In this document: positions 3,840 through 24,565 of the stretch, piece by piece | How positions within the stretch are numbered: position 1 is the stretch's first letter | Layout of the letters: every line of letters begins with the position of its first letter | Virus record (IMG/VR): IMGVR_UViG_3300036790_000811 | Location: 1 to 64,000 of that record | DNA: 64,000 nt | DNA from: a virus | Strand: one strand, 5' to 3' | Position numbers and translations under genes: made by a program | Notes under the pieces: model-generated | Told to the model about the DNA's origin: nothing | Seen by the model: the letters and a program-made list of their open reading frames with translations, nothing else | Database searches by the model: none

Positions 3840-4022
3840 TCACTGGCTGACGTAGATCCCGTTCCGGCGCATGACCTGCGCGCGGGCAACCAGGTCACGG
3901 GACGCTTGCGCTTCCGCCGCCTTGCGCTCCCGCTCCCGCTTGTCACGGAGCCGGCCGATCACGGCCACGGGGTTGTCAGCCGGAACAAAGCGGCCCTTGC
4001 CATTGCGGTATGACTTTGCCAT
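3840..4022 (-). CDS. basic helical small protein (60 aa)
   Basis: ATG at 4022 follows GAAAGGATGATCCG, the standard site of this arm. The product (MAKSYRNGKGRFVPADNP...) is strongly basic with a long Arg/Lys/Glu/Ala helix (residues 22-50). It could be a nucleic-acid or coiled-coil protein; this is inferred from composition only. Confidence 0.6.
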   Translation of the reverse strand: MAKSYRNGKGRFVPADNPVAVIGRLRDKRERERKAAEAQASRDLVARAQVMRRNGIYVSQ

Positions 4023-14240: not shown

Positions 14241-15920
14241 ATGAACAAGCGGATGCCGAAGCCTCCCCGGCCGTGGCATTCGATGGCCCGTCCTAAGCAG
14301 CTTCCCCCGGATCATTCTCGGCATCACCTCGCTGACAAAAACGGCTACCGCTGCCAGTGGAAAGAAAAGGACGGCACCCCCCACGTCTGCACGGGAGATA
14401 AAGACTGGTTCATCTGGCTCTTTCTCGCCGGCCGCATGGTCGGAAAAACGATGACCGGCTCGAACTGGATCCTGGAGGAAGCCCTCAAGTACCCCGGAAC
14501 CCGGTGGGCGGTCGTGGCACCCACGTTCCAGCAGGTTCAGGAAGTCTGCTTTACCGGGGACTCGGGAATCATCGCGCAGGCGCTGCCCGGGGAGATCTCG
14601 GAGTACAACAAGAACGCGATGATGATCGTGCTCCAGAACGGCAGCGAGATCAAGGGGTTCTCGGCCGAGGCTCCGGAACGTATTCGTGGTTACAACTTGT
14701 CCGGCGCGTGGCTGGACGAGGTGGGCTCGTACCGGAATCGCGTCATCTGGGATGAGGCGCTCGGCCCGGCTCTCCGCAAAGGAAATCCCAGGGTTGTCGT
14801 CACGACCACCCCAAGTGGCAGCCCTCTCCTGAGGGAGTGGGTGGAGCGGTTCACCAATGCCGCAAAGAAGGGTGAGCCGTGCGACATCCACCTCACCCCT
14901 GCGCGCTTCAGTGAGAACGACACCATCCCGAAGAAGCAGCTCGAACGTCTTGAGGAGCAGTACGGCGGTACCCGTATCGGGCGCCAGGAACTCGAAGGCG
15001 AGATGCTGGAAGACTTCGAGGGAGCCCTCTGGAAGCGGAGCTTCATCGAGGACCACCGGGTAAACGAGTCGGATTACTTTGACAAGGCCGGCCGCATCAG
15101 GACCGAGCTGTTCGGCCGGATCGTGGTGGCAGTGGACCCGTCGATGACATCCGGCGAGACGTCGGACGAGTCCGGGATCGTCGTCGCGGGAGAAGGCGCC
15201 GACGGCGACGGCTACCTGATCGCTGACTGGAGCGTGCAGGGTACCCCCGAGGAGACCATGCGCCGAGCCGTGGCCGCCTACTACGAGTACCACGCTGACT
15301 GCGTGGTCATGGAGACCAACCAGGGCGGTGACTACCTGGTCAAGGCCCTGCGCGCCGCCGACCCGCATGTCCCTCCCCGGCTGGTTCACGCCTCCAAGGG
15401 GAAGATGATCCGTGCCCAGCCTATTTCCATGCTCGCCGAGCAGGGCAGGCTGCACCATATCGGGTTTTTCCCGAAACTAGAGGACCAGCTTTGTACCCTG
15501 GTTCCCGACGCGTCGCGGAATCAGCACGACGACCGGGCTGACGCGTTTGTCTGGGCGATGACCGAGCTGCGGGGAATTACCGACGGCTCCTACCTGGCCA
15601 CCTATGGCCACAAGTACTGCAAGTCCTGCGGTAAGACCATCCGGACGTCCGCCCGGCTGTGCCCCGGTTGCGGCAAGATGCAGGACAGCAGTGACGACCA
15701 GACCCCCACTGCCGGCAAGTGGGCCGGCGCCTACCTGAACCACTGCAAGAAATGCGGCGAGAATTACCCGCAGCGCTTCAAGAAGTGCCCCACTTGCAAC
15801 CCGACTCCGGAAACCTACATGGCCGCCGTCCAGAAGGCGTCGGGACAAGGGGGAGGCTGGCTATCCTATTCCGGGAGAGACTGGTTCAAGGGAGCAGGCC
15901 TGTTATCAGATGCGAGGTAG
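14241..15920 (+). CDS. terL: terminase large subunit with zinc-ribbon tail
   Basis: DNA-packaging motor. Walker A AGRMVGKT (residues 63-70), Walker B WLDEVG (158-162), coupling motif TTTPSG (188-193); nuclease acids at VAVDP (D299), METN (E358) and DDRADAF (D434). An unusual C-terminal extension has two zinc ribbons, CKSC...CPGC (460-477) and CKKC...CPTC (502-519). The ATG at 14241 is the first canonical start. However, the same frame is open and coding-like for 29 codons upstream (DFPVGWDLPEGFEDFPADVQ), to a GTA at 14154 that stands five bases after GAGGTG, so translation may begin there. Confidence 0.9.
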   Translation: MNKRMPKPPRPWHSMARPKQLPPDHSRHHLADKNGYRCQWKEKDGTPHVCTGDKDWFIWLFLAGRMVGKTMTGSNWILEEALKYPGTRWAVVAPTFQQVQEVCFTGDSGIIAQALPGEISEYNKNAMMIVLQNGSEIKGFSAEAPERIRGYNLSGAWLDEVGSYRNRVIWDEALGPALRKGNPRVVVTTTPSGSPLLREWVERFTNAAKKGEPCDIHLTPARFSENDTIPKKQLERLEEQYGGTRIGRQELEGEMLEDFEGALWKRSFIEDHRVNESDYFDKAGRIRTELFGRIVVAVDPSMTSGETSDESGIVVAGEGADGDGYLIADWSVQGTPEETMRRAVAAYYEYHADCVVMETNQGGDYLVKALRAADPHVPPRLVHASKGKMIRAQPISMLAEQGRLHHIGFFPKLEDQLCTLVPDASRNQHDDRADAFVWAMTELRGITDGSYLATYGHKYCKSCGKTIRTSARLCPGCGKMQDSSDDQTPTAGKWAGAYLNHCKKCGENYPQRFKKCPTCNPTPETYMAAVQKASGQGGGWLSYSGRDWFKGAGLLSDAR

Positions 15921-18866: not shown

Positions 18867-21800
18867 ATGGCTGACAAGCGCCGGGTTGCCGCCGCACTGA
18901 AGTCAATTCCCGGGGCTCGCCCCACGATGGCTCCTCAGTCGTCGGGGTACGGTTCCGCGTCGCCTATCGCGGCGATGATGAACCAGCAGAACCAGTTCGC
19001 CAACTCCTATGGTCCTTTCCTGCCCCGGCCGAGCCAGGTGTTCACCGACGGCGCTTTCGGTCCCATGTCGCCCATTCAGCCGGTGCCGGTGGACAATCCC
19101 CCGCCGGGAGGGGAGTTCGCCGACCCCAGAAGCTGGGAATACCGGGTCGGCTGGAACCTTCCGACTCCTCCGGGGACTGAGGGTCTCAAGCTGGCAAGCT
19201 TCCAGCAGCTGAAGACCCTCAGTGAGAAGTACTGTTTGGCACCAGAAACCCGGGTACTCTGCTCGGACTTCACGTGGCGTCAGCTATCGGACATCAGCGT
19301 GGGTGATGAGCTCATCGCGTTTGACGAAGATCCCCCCGCTCGTGGACTGCACCGTAAGATGCGGTTTGCGACAGTGACGGCGTATGACCGGATTACACGT
19401 CCCTGCTACCGGGTGACACTGACAGACGGTCGTACGGTTGTCGCATCCGCCGAGCATCTATGGCTTGCCGGACGTGACAAGGCGGATGGTTCCTGCGCCT
19501 GCGAAATCTGCGGAAAGCAGTTCGGCCGCGCTCAGGGGCTGGGTGTGCACCGCAGGCAGGTTCACGATATCGAGGGTCAGTGGAAGCACAACAACTTCGG
19601 AGCATGGACGGTGACGGCGCAGCTGCGCCCGGGAAGCACTATCCGTGATCTCGGCTCCCCCTGGGAAGAGGATTTTTCCCGGGAAGCCGGCTATCTCTCT
19701 GGCGTTTACGACGGGGAAGCTTCTCTTAATATCGCGAACGGTAATCATAAAGGCTGGGGAATTGGATTCCCGCAGAATGCTGGTCCGGTTTTCGATGAAG
19801 TAGAAGCCATTCTCAAGCGCAAGGAATATGGTTTTCGGATTCACGGTCCAGGTATTAATGACTCCTGTAAGCATATTACGATCAGCGGGATGCGTGATTG
19901 TTTCCGCTTCATGGGAGAAATGCGCCCTCTTCGTCTTCTAGGAAATGCCAGGAAGTGGATAGAGGGAAATAGCCCTTCCCGTGCTGGATGTGCGACCGTG
20001 GAATCCGTAGAATTCCTGGGCGAGCGAGAGGTAATCGCTGCCGGCACGAGCACGAGCACGCTTATTGCGGAAGGGCTGTTTTCGCACAACAGCGTCGCCC
20101 GCGCCTGCATCGACCTGCGCCAGCAGGAGATCCGTGGTCTCGAATGGGAGATCACGATGACCAAGGAAGCGGCGAAGGCATACCAGAACTCGCACGCCAG
20201 GATGAAGGACTTCGGGGTCCGCGCGGCGGAGGCCACGAAGTTCTTCAAGCGTCCCGATCCGGATTATTGGACGTTCAGCTCGTTCATGAACGCGATGCTG
20301 GAAGAGATCTTCGTCTACGACGCCCTGAGTGTCATCTTCCGTCCCAAGTACGGTGCCAAGTTCGGGCGCGGCGGTCGCGGGCTCCTCGGCAGCGACCTGG
20401 ACTCGCTCCGTCTCATTTCGGGACCGACGATCCGTCCCCTGGTGGACCTGCACGGCAACATCCCCAAGGCTCCGGGGACTCCGGCCTACCAGCAGTACCT
20501 GTACGGCGTCCCCCGCTCGGACTACATGTCCATCCTTCGGGGTGACGACATTGCGGGAACCGTCCTGGCGGGGTCGGAATACAACGAGTTCACCGCCGAC
20601 TTGATGCTGTACGCCCCCTACTGGCCGCGCCGGGAGACCCCCTACGGCTTCCCGCCGATTGAGCGCGCCCTCTTGCCGGTGATCGCCGGGCTTCAGAAGC
20701 AGGAATACCAGCTTGACTTCTTCTCCGAGGGTTCGGTTCCGGCGGTCTATATCTCCCCGGGTGACCCCAATATCACCCCGACGCAGATCAAGGAGCTGCA
20801 AGACGCCCTGAACGGGATCGCAGGGGATCCGGCGTACCACATGAAGGTCGTCGTCCTCCCTCCTGGCTCTAAGGTCGAGCCGCAGAAGCCCGTGGATCTC
20901 GCGGACTCCTTCGACCTGCTCGTTCAGACTCAGGTGTGCATGGCATTCGATTGCCAGCCGGCAGAGCTGGGCATTCTGCCGAACGTGGGCAGCAACCAGG
21001 GCGGTGGCGGAGCCTCGGCCGGTGCCATCCGCCTCGGCATGCAAGAAGCCCGGGACATCAAGTCCCGCAAGTCCACGAAGCCGACCCTGCACTTCATCGC
21101 CAGCATCTTCAACTATATCCTTCAGGATGTCTGCGGCCAGAAGGACATGAAGTTCACCTTCGAGGGCCTCGCCGACGACGAGGACCAGCAGGCGATTACC
21201 GACCTCGGCGTCCAGCAGGTCCAGAACGGTATCGCGTCTATCGATGAGGTCCGGGACCGCCTTGATCTTCCCCCATGGGGCCTGTCCGAGACGTCGGAGC
21301 CGGTGGTCTTCACCGCCCAGGGGCCGATCCCGTTCTCCATGGCCCCGCAGCTCATCGCGAACATGCAGGGACAGAACGGAGGGTCGTCGTCATCCGGGAA
21401 CTCGAACAATGGTACCCAGTCCAGCAATTCCGGGCAGCGCACTTCCTCCTCGCGGACGAGGACGAATCAGCCCTCGGTGCGAGCCGGAGGGCAGACCAAG
21501 CCCAACGGCAGTCATCAGGCGCCGATCGCCCCGCATCGCGAGTCCCTGACGCCCGCACATAGTGCCGCCAGCGGGGCCGTGCAGAGCCCTACTCCCCGAA
21601 CTGGCGGCACCCCTTCGCGATCAAGTGTGGCCGGATCGAGGAAGAAGGCGGTGGAGGCTGAGTTCGGTGCCCTGAAGCGCCACCTCCGCAAGGGCCGGCT
21701 GATTACCACCTGGGAAACGCGGCACATTCCCGAGCGGTCCCTGTCCATGATTTCGGAGGACATCGCCAACGGCCTGCTGATTGACTCCGCCGTGGACCGG

Positions 21801-24014
21801 GCCACCGATTTCGTTCTGAAGGACGAAGAGGACATCTTTGAGCCGATCGTGGCCAAGGCACAGCAGTGGCCGGGCTGGGAGCGCGATCTCGGGCTCGTCG
21901 GTGCCTATAAGCAGCAGATTGAGGGAGCCTTTGCCGTTGCCCAGGCCAAGGGTGAGCAACTGCGCCACAAGGCGGCCAACGGGGGCATGTTCGTCTCCAG
22001 CTCTGCCCTGCGGGGACTCATTTCGGATGAGATGCATGACACTTTCCTGGGGGTTCTCCAGCCTCTGTGGAGCGAAGCGTGGCACCTCGGTTACGAGGCG
22101 GCCAAATCTCTGGTCACGGGCCAGGACGCGGACTTCGCCGTCAAGCACGAGAGCGGTGCGCTCGACGGGTTTATCGACACCCAGGGCGCTCACTGGGCGG
22201 AACAGATCGCCCGGACCGGCCTGAAGAACGAGAACGCCCGGACTGAGGCTATCGCCCGGACCGAAATAGCCCGCGCCGTGAACGCGGCGGCCATCCAGGC
22301 GTACCGGGACTACGGTGTCACCCACAAGCAGCTCATGCTTGCTCCTGATGACGCCTGCGACATCTGCAAGGATGCCGAGGATGAGGGTGTCATCCCGCTG
22401 GACGCGATCTTTCCTCAGGGAGGTCTTGGCGGTCCACTTCATGTTTCGTGCCGATGTGTCCCTGTCGCCGCCGGGATCGAGTTGGAGCCTCCGCAGGGAC
22501 ATCTCGGCAAGAGCCTTCTCGGGGATCTGGCTGCATCCGGTCCCTTTCCTTCCAGTGGGCCCGATCACCCCTACAGGCAGGACGGGCAGTCCGGAGCTGG
22601 CAACTGCGAGTGCGGTCATGCCGCAAGTGCACACGAAGATAAGTCCCGGCTTGCTTGGCTGCTGATGCGCGCCCGGGATGATGACGGCAAGTACCGCTTC
22701 CTGCTCCAGCAGCGGGACGACGGCACCTGGGGTATGCCCGGCGGCACGACTCACGTCGGGGAAGATCCGTGGGACGCCGCTATCCGCGAGTGTACGGAAG
22801 AAGTCGGGGACCTTCCGGGCATGACCGTGGCCGCCACGTTCCACCACGAGGAAGACAATGGCGCTCGCGCCTACGTCTGGATGGTGGACGTTCCCTATTT
22901 CCAGCCGAAGATGAACGGCTCGACTCCCGAGGAGACCCAGGGTGTCGCCTGGTTCCGGCGCAAGGAGATCGACAAGCTTAACCTGACCGGAAAGTTCCGC
23001 GAAGACTGGGAGCAGACGCCCGATATCCGGGAGTACGCCACCAAGAACCAGAACATGGTGAACGAATCCGGTGAGCGACTGGCGATCGTGGACTCCCAGG
23101 CACCGCTGCACGCTTCGGGAGCGCGGTGGCCCTACCCGAACCGGTCGCCGAACGGCTTTCCGATCGAGGACCCGCACTACAACCAGGCACCGGGCGAAAT
23201 GGGAGCCAGCGAGCCTCCCCGCAAGGACCTGGACAGCGATACCCCGACCCGGCTGTACCCCAGGGGTACCGAAGACGAGAAATTCCCGCCCAGGAGGGGA
23301 AAGGGCAAGCCCGCCAAGAAGTTCCCGGAGCAGGGCGACGAACAGTGGCCCGAGACCGAGAACGGCGGAGCGCAATCATCGTCCGCTCAGGTAGGGGGCA
23401 ATACGGGAGTCCCGAAAGCGGGTCCCGTGCCGGCGGTAGGGAGCGTCCCGGCGAAGACGCCGACTCCGATGGCGCCCCGGAGTGTTCCTCCGCAGGTTTA
23501 CGATCCCGCTGACGCGGTGGCGACGGAAGAAGACGGGGAAATCGCGTACTACCCCCAGCCGAAGCCGAAGAAGGGAAAGGGTGCCGCGAATTACACGGAC
23601 CCTTCTCCGGTGGACGCCGAGCACGTATACGTTCAGCTCGCCAGGAATTTCCCACCAAAAGCTATTGCCTGGGTTCAGCGAGCTCGATGGATCGGCCCCA
23701 TCTGGATTCCGTGGGATCGGATTGATACTGACGACCAGGATGAATGGGCCGCCTCCCACCAGCCTGAGCACGTGAAAGATTTCATGCGCCAGATCAAGGA
23801 TCATGACGGCCGGATCGTCCCGTCGGTCCTGGTTCAGGAGCCAGACGGCGGAAAGGCGTTCATCGTAGACGGTCATCACCGTGCTCTCGCCCGGGAAAAG
23901 CTGGAGCAGCCGGTGCTCGCTTATCTCGGGACGATTAACCCGGATGATCGGCAGGCGGCACTGGAAACCCATAGCGCCCAGGTTCATCACGGTGCCGACC
24001 ATGACAATAACTGA
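18867..24014 (+). CDS. portal-MuF-Nudix-ParB-like fusion protein interrupted by an intein (1715 aa)
   Basis: Residues 1-122 and 409-830: phage portal (ring at the head vertex through which DNA passes). Residues 123-408: intein. Residues about 925-1200: MuF/SPP1 gp7-like head morphogenesis domain (EAIARTEIARAVNAAAIQAY, then CDICKDAEDEG and HVSCRC). Residues about 1255-1385: Nudix hydrolase with box GTTHVGE...REC-EEVG. Residues about 1590-1700: ParB/sulfiredoxin-like domain with VDGHHRALA. Linkers are Ser/Pro/Gly-rich. After splicing about 1,429 residues remain. AAAAGGAG before the ATG is a good ribosome site. The Nudix and ParB-like parts may be enzymatic cargo carried in the virion; that is inference. 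Confidence 0.88.
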   Translation: MADKRRVAAALKSIPGARPTMAPQSSGYGSASPIAAMMNQQNQFANSYGPFLPRPSQVFTDGAFGPMSPIQPVPVDNPPPGGEFADPRSWEYRVGWNLPTPPGTEGLKLASFQQLKTLSEKYCLAPETRVLCSDFTWRQLSDISVGDELIAFDEDPPARGLHRKMRFATVTAYDRITRPCYRVTLTDGRTVVASAEHLWLAGRDKADGSCACEICGKQFGRAQGLGVHRRQVHDIEGQWKHNNFGAWTVTAQLRPGSTIRDLGSPWEEDFSREAGYLSGVYDGEASLNIANGNHKGWGIGFPQNAGPVFDEVEAILKRKEYGFRIHGPGINDSCKHITISGMRDCFRFMGEMRPLRLLGNARKWIEGNSPSRAGCATVESVEFLGEREVIAAGTSTSTLIAEGLFSHNSVARACIDLRQQEIRGLEWEITMTKEAAKAYQNSHARMKDFGVRAAEATKFFKRPDPDYWTFSSFMNAMLEEIFVYDALSVIFRPKYGAKFGRGGRGLLGSDLDSLRLISGPTIRPLVDLHGNIPKAPGTPAYQQYLYGVPRSDYMSILRGDDIAGTVLAGSEYNEFTADLMLYAPYWPRRETPYGFPPIERALLPVIAGLQKQEYQLDFFSEGSVPAVYISPGDPNITPTQIKELQDALNGIAGDPAYHMKVVVLPPGSKVEPQKPVDLADSFDLLVQTQVCMAFDCQPAELGILPNVGSNQGGGGASAGAIRLGMQEARDIKSRKSTKPTLHFIASIFNYILQDVCGQKDMKFTFEGLADDEDQQAITDLGVQQVQNGIASIDEVRDRLDLPPWGLSETSEPVVFTAQGPIPFSMAPQLIANMQGQNGGSSSSGNSNNGTQSSNSGQRTSSSRTRTNQPSVRAGGQTKPNGSHQAPIAPHRESLTPAHSAASGAVQSPTPRTGGTPSRSSVAGSRKKAVEAEFGALKRHLRKGRLITTWETRHIPERSLSMISEDIANGLLIDSAVDRATDFVLKDEEDIFEPIVAKAQQWPGWERDLGLVGAYKQQIEGAFAVAQAKGEQLRHKAANGGMFVSSSALRGLISDEMHDTFLGVLQPLWSEAWHLGYEAAKSLVTGQDADFAVKHESGALDGFIDTQGAHWAEQIARTGLKNENARTEAIARTEIARAVNAAAIQAYRDYGVTHKQLMLAPDDACDICKDAEDEGVIPLDAIFPQGGLGGPLHVSCRCVPVAAGIELEPPQGHLGKSLLGDLAASGPFPSSGPDHPYRQDGQSGAGNCECGHAASAHEDKSRLAWLLMRARDDDGKYRFLLQQRDDGTWGMPGGTTHVGEDPWDAAIRECTEEVGDLPGMTVAATFHHEEDNGARAYVWMVDVPYFQPKMNGSTPEETQGVAWFRRKEIDKLNLTGKFREDWEQTPDIREYATKNQNMVNESGERLAIVDSQAPLHASGARWPYPNRSPNGFPIEDPHYNQAPGEMGASEPPRKDLDSDTPTRLYPRGTEDEKFPPRRGKGKPAKKFPEQGDEQWPETENGGAQSSSAQVGGNTGVPKAGPVPAVGSVPAKTPTPMAPRSVPPQVYDPADAVATEEDGEIAYYPQPKPKKGKGAANYTDPSPVDAEHVYVQLARNFPPKAIAWVQRARWIGPIWIPWDRIDTDDQDEWAASHQPEHVKDFMRQIKDHDGRIVPSVLVQEPDGGKAFIVDGHHRALAREKLEQPVLAYLGTINPDDRQAALETHSAQVHHGADHDNN
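19233..20090 (+). mobile_element. intein in the portal gene with C2H2 finger and endonuclease-like domain (286 aa)
   Basis: Starts at Cys123 (CLAPETRVLCSD) and ends GLFSHN before Ser409, the classic C...HN|S splice borders. An HINT-type block is seen at VGDELIAFDE and at the C-terminal segment EVIAAGTSTSTLIAEGLFSH. Between them are a classical C2H2 zinc finger (C-x2-C-x12-H-x4-H, residues 212-233) and a single degenerate LAGLIDADG-like motif (GYLSGVYDGEASL, 275-287). The flanks KY and SVARACIDL join into normal portal sequence after splicing. Confidence 0.88.
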
Positions 24015-24565
24015 GAAGCTCCTGCTTCCAGATAGTCCACCATGGCCTGCAGTCTTTTGATGTCATCTTTTACCCATCCAAGAATCAGGTTGCAGTCTTT
24101 ACAGAGAAGGCCTCGAATCTTTCCTGACTCATGGCAGTGGTCGATCGACATCCTGGCGGTCTTATTGCCGCATATGTCGCAACCATCTCCAGCTCGGCGC
24201 CGCGCCTCTACCTTGAGCCCGTCTGGGCCATAGATTCGGCGTACACGTGCGACTCGCTGGTTTTGGAGACTGCGTTCTTTGTTTGCGTGATGCCACTCCA
24301 GGGAGTTCTTGGACATGCATCGTTTACAGATGCGCTGTCGTTTGTCCCGGTAACGTATGTTTTTCCCGAATCCTTCAATCGGTTTTTCTTCGTCGCATCG
24401 AGTGCACGTTCGCTTGGTGTCGCCTAGCACCACGGGCGCCGGGGCTCTAGAGATGAACACGTCCCCATATGTCATGAATCTTCGATAGTGGAGTCGGCAG
24501 TAGCCCCTCGCGACGTGCGGCCGAACGCAGTCGGGGACATCGCATTTCCTTTCTTTTGGTGTCAT
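23987..24565 (-). CDS. antisense HNH/endonuclease VII-type homing endonuclease (192 aa)
   Basis: Four N-terminal Cys/His (CDVPDCVRPH, YCRLHY) form a zinc knuckle; a middle C-x2-C pair (CTRC, CKRC) follows. The C-terminal CDICGNKTARMSIDHCHESG block is the recombination endonuclease VII fold. ATG 24565 has extended -10 TGCTAAGAT seven bases upstream and no ribosome site. Its 3' end overlaps the portal fusion by 28 bases. Less GC-rich than neighbours. It occupies the gap before 24603. Confidence 0.85.
   Translation of the reverse strand: MTPKERKCDVPDCVRPHVARGYCRLHYRRFMTYGDVFISRAPAPVVLGDTKRTCTRCDEEKPIEGFGKNIRYRDKRQRICKRCMSKNSLEWHHANKERSLQNQRVARVRRIYGPDGLKVEARRRAGDGCDICGNKTARMSIDHCHESGKIRGLLCKDCNLILGWVKDDIKRLQAMVDYLEAGASQLLSWSAP

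Follow-up and report, generated by a model that had tools for sequence, protein, structure and literature searches.

Beyer and colleagues proposed that homing inteins gain accessory DNA-binding domains from sources such as transcription factors, reaching new sites in this way (PMC8966425). The same study describes these domains as structurally diverse, two of them being helix-turn-helix-like, and as altering cleavage; it states that the mechanisms of acquisition are not known, and reports that in archaeal VMA inteins an accessory domain made the enzyme more promiscuous, not more specific (PMC8966425). The DNA recognition region of PI-SceI is presented there as an insertion into the HINT domain that contacts DNA (PMC8966425). 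In the homing endonuclease I-TevI, the zinc finger determines distance and is described as responding to redox conditions (PMC2988022). No natural intein with a C2H2 finger was found in the literature searched, beyond which lay most papers in subscription journals. As far as sequence and literature searches reach, the phage intein described here would be the first to carry a C2H2 accessory domain.

The window, a stretch of 64,000 nucleotides, corresponds to bases 1-64000 of a virus record in IMG/VR that is 76,489 bases long. Its portal gene (18867..24014, plus strand; PF04860, E 3.8e-13) forms one open frame of 1715 codons, in which an intein of 286 aa (19233..20090, plus strand; 858 nt, 286 codons) is inserted in frame. 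The intein extends from Cys1 (19233-19235) to a terminal His-Asn (Asn286 at 20088-20090) and is followed by Ser+1 of the C-extein (20091..20093, plus strand). The portal gene product (1715 aa including the intein) is a long fusion of portal, MuF-like (PF04233, below cut-off) and NUDIX (E 3.3e-13) parts, with a C-terminal part without assignment beyond NUDIX. Large fusion genes, annotated portal/MuF and MutT/NUDIX, are also present in the Arthrobacter phages Sonali and Mufasa8. On the minus strand, opposite to the intein-bearing portal gene and overlapping its 3' end, lies a gene for recombination endonuclease VII (23987-24565; PF02945, E 2.4e-18). The C-terminus of the large terminase (14241-15920) carries two zinc-ribbon-like CxxC pairs (Zn_ribbon_15 2.2e-5, DZR 1.2e-4, both below cut-off). 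A search for tRNA genes across the window found none.

The intein in the portal gene is confirmed by empty sites together with family and structure matches. All eight close portals from IMG/VR (69-79% identical) are uninterrupted at the site and have a native Ser at +1, and seven of them read continuously from K/R-Y into SVAR, the stretch that was read containing no insert. When the spliced portal is aligned with three distant portals (Sonali, Mufasa8 and THSA-485A), in which the +1 residue is Asp, the junction is free of gaps. The borders (Cys1, and HN before Ser) and the joined portal sequence had been called convincing in a preliminary description made from the letters alone, and the borders were right; portal homologues retaining the segment, which would have spoken against an intein, were absent among the eight close relatives. 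We rejected a domain of the portal itself as an explanation of the segment, because intein-free portals align over the junction. The eighth close portal (L068) has a different, larger intein 12 residues upstream, between LKLA and SFDNL, which begins with C, finishes with GN and ends at about position 3964 of that locus, so that two adjacent intein sites occur within one portal lineage.

The hallmarks of a class-1-type intein are present. Cys1 opens block A, the T/S-x-x-H of block B occurs as S72-A-E-H75, and H285-N286 precedes Ser+1, as class-1-type borders require. Cys1 and the block-B His75 are invariant in an alignment of 37 family members, as are Leu9, Asp160, Gln181, Gly281 and Asn286. 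Four segments, all on the plus strand, were delimited by family alignment and, past the loop, by the AlphaFold model: a Hint part at the N-terminus that comprises block A (CLAPETRVL) and, with His75, block B (SAEH) (19233..19469; pLDDT about 96-98 except at residues 31-40), Hint strands comprising W125-x5-L131-RPGSTIRD (residues 125-139, 19605..19649), a single LAGLIDADG half-domain supported also by profile matches (residues 150-243, 19680..19961), and a C-terminal Hint part with blocks F/G (residues 252-286, TSTSTLIAEGLFSHN, 19986..20090). The model, built with a 37-row alignment, is confident for Hint and one LAGLIDADG half (mean pLDDT 87.2, pTM 0.84). Its closest structural match is the splicing domain of Mtu RecA (Z 19.7, 1.9 A over 131 residues; Hint), and endonuclease-bearing inteins also match (TliVMA Z 17.2, PI-SceI Z 16.0); structures were compared by Foldseek as well. 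The intein is predicted to splice.

The endonuclease part has one LAGLIDADG-type motif (AGYLSGVYDGEA, residues 152-163) with the acidic residue E162, and the family-invariant Gln181 is kept; E162 and Q181 correspond to positions of the catalytic site in I-CreI. Through its LAGLIDADG part, the family profile matches PI-PfuI (E 7.6e-10), I-MsoI (8e-8) and I-AniI (about 7e-4). In the AlphaFold model, DSSP predicts for residues 150-230 one helix-strand-strand-helix-strand-strand-helix unit, not two. The preliminary description was correct in noting only one such motif, but a single motif is the rule across the 37 aligned members and hence nothing unusual. The last residue of the motif is Ala163, at a position where Gly is near-invariant in the family, and cleavage could therefore be impaired.

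By sequence, the intein is one of a family of class-1-type inteins that is widespread and whose members have a single LAGLIDADG half. With the intein as query, tblastn returned 138 phage records (E <= 1e-5, each matching at least 80% of the segment), from phages of Mycobacterium (120), Gordonia (17) and one other host. Among the matches listed, those in Bixzunavirus lie in terminase genes (a few annotated as hypothetical protein), and those in Gordonia phages lie in portal genes. The NCBIfam model rSAM_Rv_intein covers residues 1-286 (E 2e-15) with 56.7 bits, far below its cut-off of 700, which applies to a whole-protein model. A family set from IMG/VR and GTDB contigs comprised 162 loci, several of them one contig fetched repeatedly; they yielded 114 distinct sequences, of which 101 are full length. 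The flanks of the family loci L007-L126 differ widely, apparently reflecting many unrelated host proteins. In two large contigs, L051 (251 kb) and L290 (512 kb), inteins of the same family start directly after SCTLGCTY and SCSVGCKY, respectively. These residues may form a cysteine motif of the radical SAM kind, like that of the Rv2578c-type host, which suggests rSAM inteins in very large phages. Among actinobacterial genomes, 131 of 396 had a match to the family profile. Thirty loci from these genomes appear from their size to be of the radical SAM type; 27 are longer (288-355 aa), with the endonuclease part matched twice or over a longer span, and the other three are about 150 aa. In the tree, the nearest branches have a support of 0.41 and the branch of the window intein is long (1.02), and we claim no sister group for this reason. 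The family profile detected no second intein of the family in the window.

Residues 90-111 of the intein form a classical C2H2 zinc finger motif (CEICGKQFGRAQGLGVHRRQVH, 19500..19565, plus strand; C90, C93, H106 and H111), identified by motif, Pfam and shuffles. Its pattern is C-x2-C-x12-H-x4-H, with the canonical Phe97 and Leu103 (C-x2-C-x3-F-x5-L-x2-H-x4-H), and it satisfies the strict classical pattern C-x2-4-C-x3-F-x5-L-x2-H-x3-5-H. This strict pattern occurs once in the six frames of the window, so that a second finger was not found there, and shuffling the residues of the intein 200,000 times produced it in 3 cases; a tighter DNA pattern for the finger matched once in the window and in none of 100 shuffles. 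In 846,574 bases of other loci, a count that omits L001 and the at least 80 loci chosen for a finger, the strict motif occurred 11 times, 10 of them in nine loci fetched for it and the eleventh in L062, outside the intein. Pfam zf-C2H2_6 matched with E 7.4e-5 and 23.1 bits against a curated cut-off of 25, and zf-C2H2 with 16.5 against 25.2; such a cut-off marks a curators' limit and does not stand for any defining residue, and of seven comparable phage finger proteins two (L242 and L244) reach that of a zf-C2H2 model, five falling short. In the AlphaFold model of the intein, residues 86-120 have pLDDT <50, and the finger region modelled alone gave a short hairpin without a helix (pLDDT 64). 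The finger reported in the preliminary description is confirmed as a motif, and it most likely binds zinc.

The finger lies in an expanded loop within the Hint domain (residues 80-124, 19470..19604, plus strand). The preliminary description had placed it between the splicing block and the endonuclease-like domain; it does lie past block B, but inside the Hint splicing domain, before the W125-x5-L131-x2-G134 strand, and not in the endonuclease. The interval from His75 to Trp125 is 49 residues here versus 10-26 (median 13) in 88 relatives; for this comparison and the tree, 16 partial and 10 identical loci were dropped from 112. The intein thus has an extra domain inserted in HINT, a 45-residue region between strands 76-79 and 125-127.

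Zinc fingers were absent from the relatives. None of the 162 family loci from IMG/VR and GTDB (114 distinct proteins, 101 full length) and none of the 30 actinobacterial genome loci has the finger, which rules it out as a shared family trait and, across these two sets, as part of a known intein class. A gain in the lineage of the window intein is therefore the simplest history that the sequences suggest. A DNA pattern running from block B to the finger retrieved at least 80 stretches, and none of 81 frames matched the family profile, so that this search yielded no other finger-bearing intein.

The subtype of the finger circulates, judging from sequence, in phage nucleases, among other proteins. 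A DNA pattern for this subtype (C-[D/E]-x-C-G-K-x-F-x4-G-L-x2-H-x4-H) identified nine IMG/VR stretches. One encodes a two-finger endonuclease (L237, 668-1324, minus strand; endonuclease PHROG E 5.7e-12) and another a finger with an ERCC4-type nuclease (L243, 9303-10289, minus strand; PHROG E 1.1e-12); in both, the fingers are N-terminal and of the same subtype as that of the intein. The third of the three proteins compared with PHROGs (L238) had weak matches. Among seven subtype proteins compared with Pfam, the remaining matches were to finger models or were weak, and L238, L241 and L245 are apparent copies of one protein. Searching the phage collection with the 37-residue finger region returned seven weak records (best E 0.3) and no donor. 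The GC3 of the finger-coding DNA (0.74, from 43 codons) is above that of the remaining intein DNA (0.61 and 0.53) and nearer to that of the exteins (0.78-0.84), which, on these 43 codons, fits a separate acquisition.

We consider it moderately probable that the finger is an accessory DNA-binding module that assists the endonuclease in engaging its homing site, by a contact that we infer and that would be comparable to the one made by the DNA-recognition insert in PI-SceI. Once the protein is made, the Hint domain would splice itself out (through Cys1, the block-B His75, the terminal His-Asn and Ser+1), leaving an intact portal. The excised intein with its one LAGLIDADG half, presumably as a homodimer, would cut intein-free portal genes, whose repair would copy the intein in. 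In the lineage of the window intein, the loop after Hint block B would have gained a classical C2H2 finger; this finger most likely binds zinc and would add a DNA contact beside the LAGLIDADG footprint. A single zinc finger alone is usually weak. Within 12 bases of the insertion site, dyad symmetry shows no excess over background, and a symmetric dimer would therefore, speculatively, profit from an orienting contact; the finger could make binding stronger, orient it or shift its target, at a homing site without dyad symmetry of its own. That the finger could add site recognition, as the preliminary description had suggested, is plausible from the one finger-bearing intein found. A more specific version, which we put forward tentatively, is a fresh natural fusion of a zinc finger with a LAGLIDADG enzyme, in which Hint received its C2H2 finger from among those of phage nucleases and the enzyme thereby came to occupy, or keeps, an asymmetric portal site.

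The position of the finger within the splicing domain, just past the block-B His75, also fits a metal or redox switch that affects splicing, or the fidelity of cleavage, and plays no part in recognising DNA sequence. Without zinc, the loop by block B would then change shape, and splicing would be slowed or freed, or the nuclease relaxed. Zinc reversibly inhibits the splicing of some inteins by coordinating active-site residues (PMC7765530), which makes a switch a real rival, and the I-TevI finger, a distance ruler, is described as redox-responsive (PMC2988022). We nevertheless regard a switch, including this course of events, as unlikely: the motif is a canonical C2H2 of the DNA-binding type with a recognition-helix segment, the nearest subtype kin found include nuclease-fused fingers, and the Hint core is predicted to be well folded whatever the loop does.

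It is similarly improbable that a length-tolerant loop took up a finger-coding fragment that is now a functionless, neutral passenger. The variation in loop length across the family (10-26 residues), the single occurrence of the finger, and its GC3 (0.74 against 0.61 and 0.53), which may indicate separate acquisition, agree with such a history, but all four ligands are intact, as are the spacings and the Phe and Leu that belong to the fold, which would be unexpected in decay unless the uptake was very recent. A chance arrangement of Cys and His in a disordered loop is very hard to believe, since the low pLDDT of the loop (<50), the poor stand-alone model and the Pfam scores below cut-off, which would suit it, are outweighed by the rarity of the motif in shuffles (3/200,000), its being the sole strict match in six window frames, the zf-C2H2_6 match (E 7.4e-5) and the finding that other phage C2H2 fingers also score below or near the Pfam cut-offs.

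If the finger does represent a fresh fusion, it would be a direct natural case of inteins borrowing DNA-binding domains for new sites. The finger is compact and absent from the relatives examined, and close phages have empty sites; its evolution is therefore testable, and domain gain, specificity change and effect on splicing can all be addressed in one protein of 286 residues. A natural fusion of a zinc finger with a meganuclease would also inform nuclease engineering.

Several known systems come close to the window intein. The TerL inteins of Bixzunavirus (cluster C1) mycobacteriophages, such as Pinkcreek gp233, are full-length homologues (34.8% identity, E 1e-36) with the same blocks, one LAGLIDADG half and HN/Ser borders, but their host is TerL, their loop after block B has 26 residues and they have no finger. 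The portal inteins of Gordonia phages (Newt and Hello; Woesvirus) are likewise full-length homologues (29.9%, E 1e-24) and differ in the junction sequence, in a C-terminal HN followed by Thr and in having no finger. For inteins in radical SAM proteins of the Rv2578c type (NCBIfam NF038136), the profile matches residues 1-286 (E 2e-15), whereas their actinobacterial kin are longer in 27 of 30 cases, with two LAGLIDADG halves, and none has a finger. PI-SceI, the yeast VMA intein, resembles the window intein in combining Hint, LAGLIDADG and an extra domain in HINT (PMC8966425). On PI-SceI, the match of the family profile ends at residue 90 (profile A3) or 112 (profile A2). We take residue 90 or so to be the start of the DNA recognition region, its positional equivalence with the finger being unproven. 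The PI-SceI insert is not known to be a C2H2 finger, and PI-SceI has two LAGLIDADG halves. TliVMA and PI-TkoII also have an accessory domain of the DNA-binding type in an intein, theirs being helix-turn-helix-like, with a different fold and another placement than that of PI-SceI (PMC8966425). In I-TevI and other phage homing endonucleases, a zinc finger stands beside a homing nuclease (PMC2988022, PMC3943268); these enzymes differ in having GIY-YIG, HNH or ED-HD nucleases and in not being inteins. Compared with these systems, in which single-motif LAGLIDADG inteins and accessory DNA-binding domains were already known, the new element of the window intein, in the collections searched, is the putative C2H2 accessory finger within Hint.
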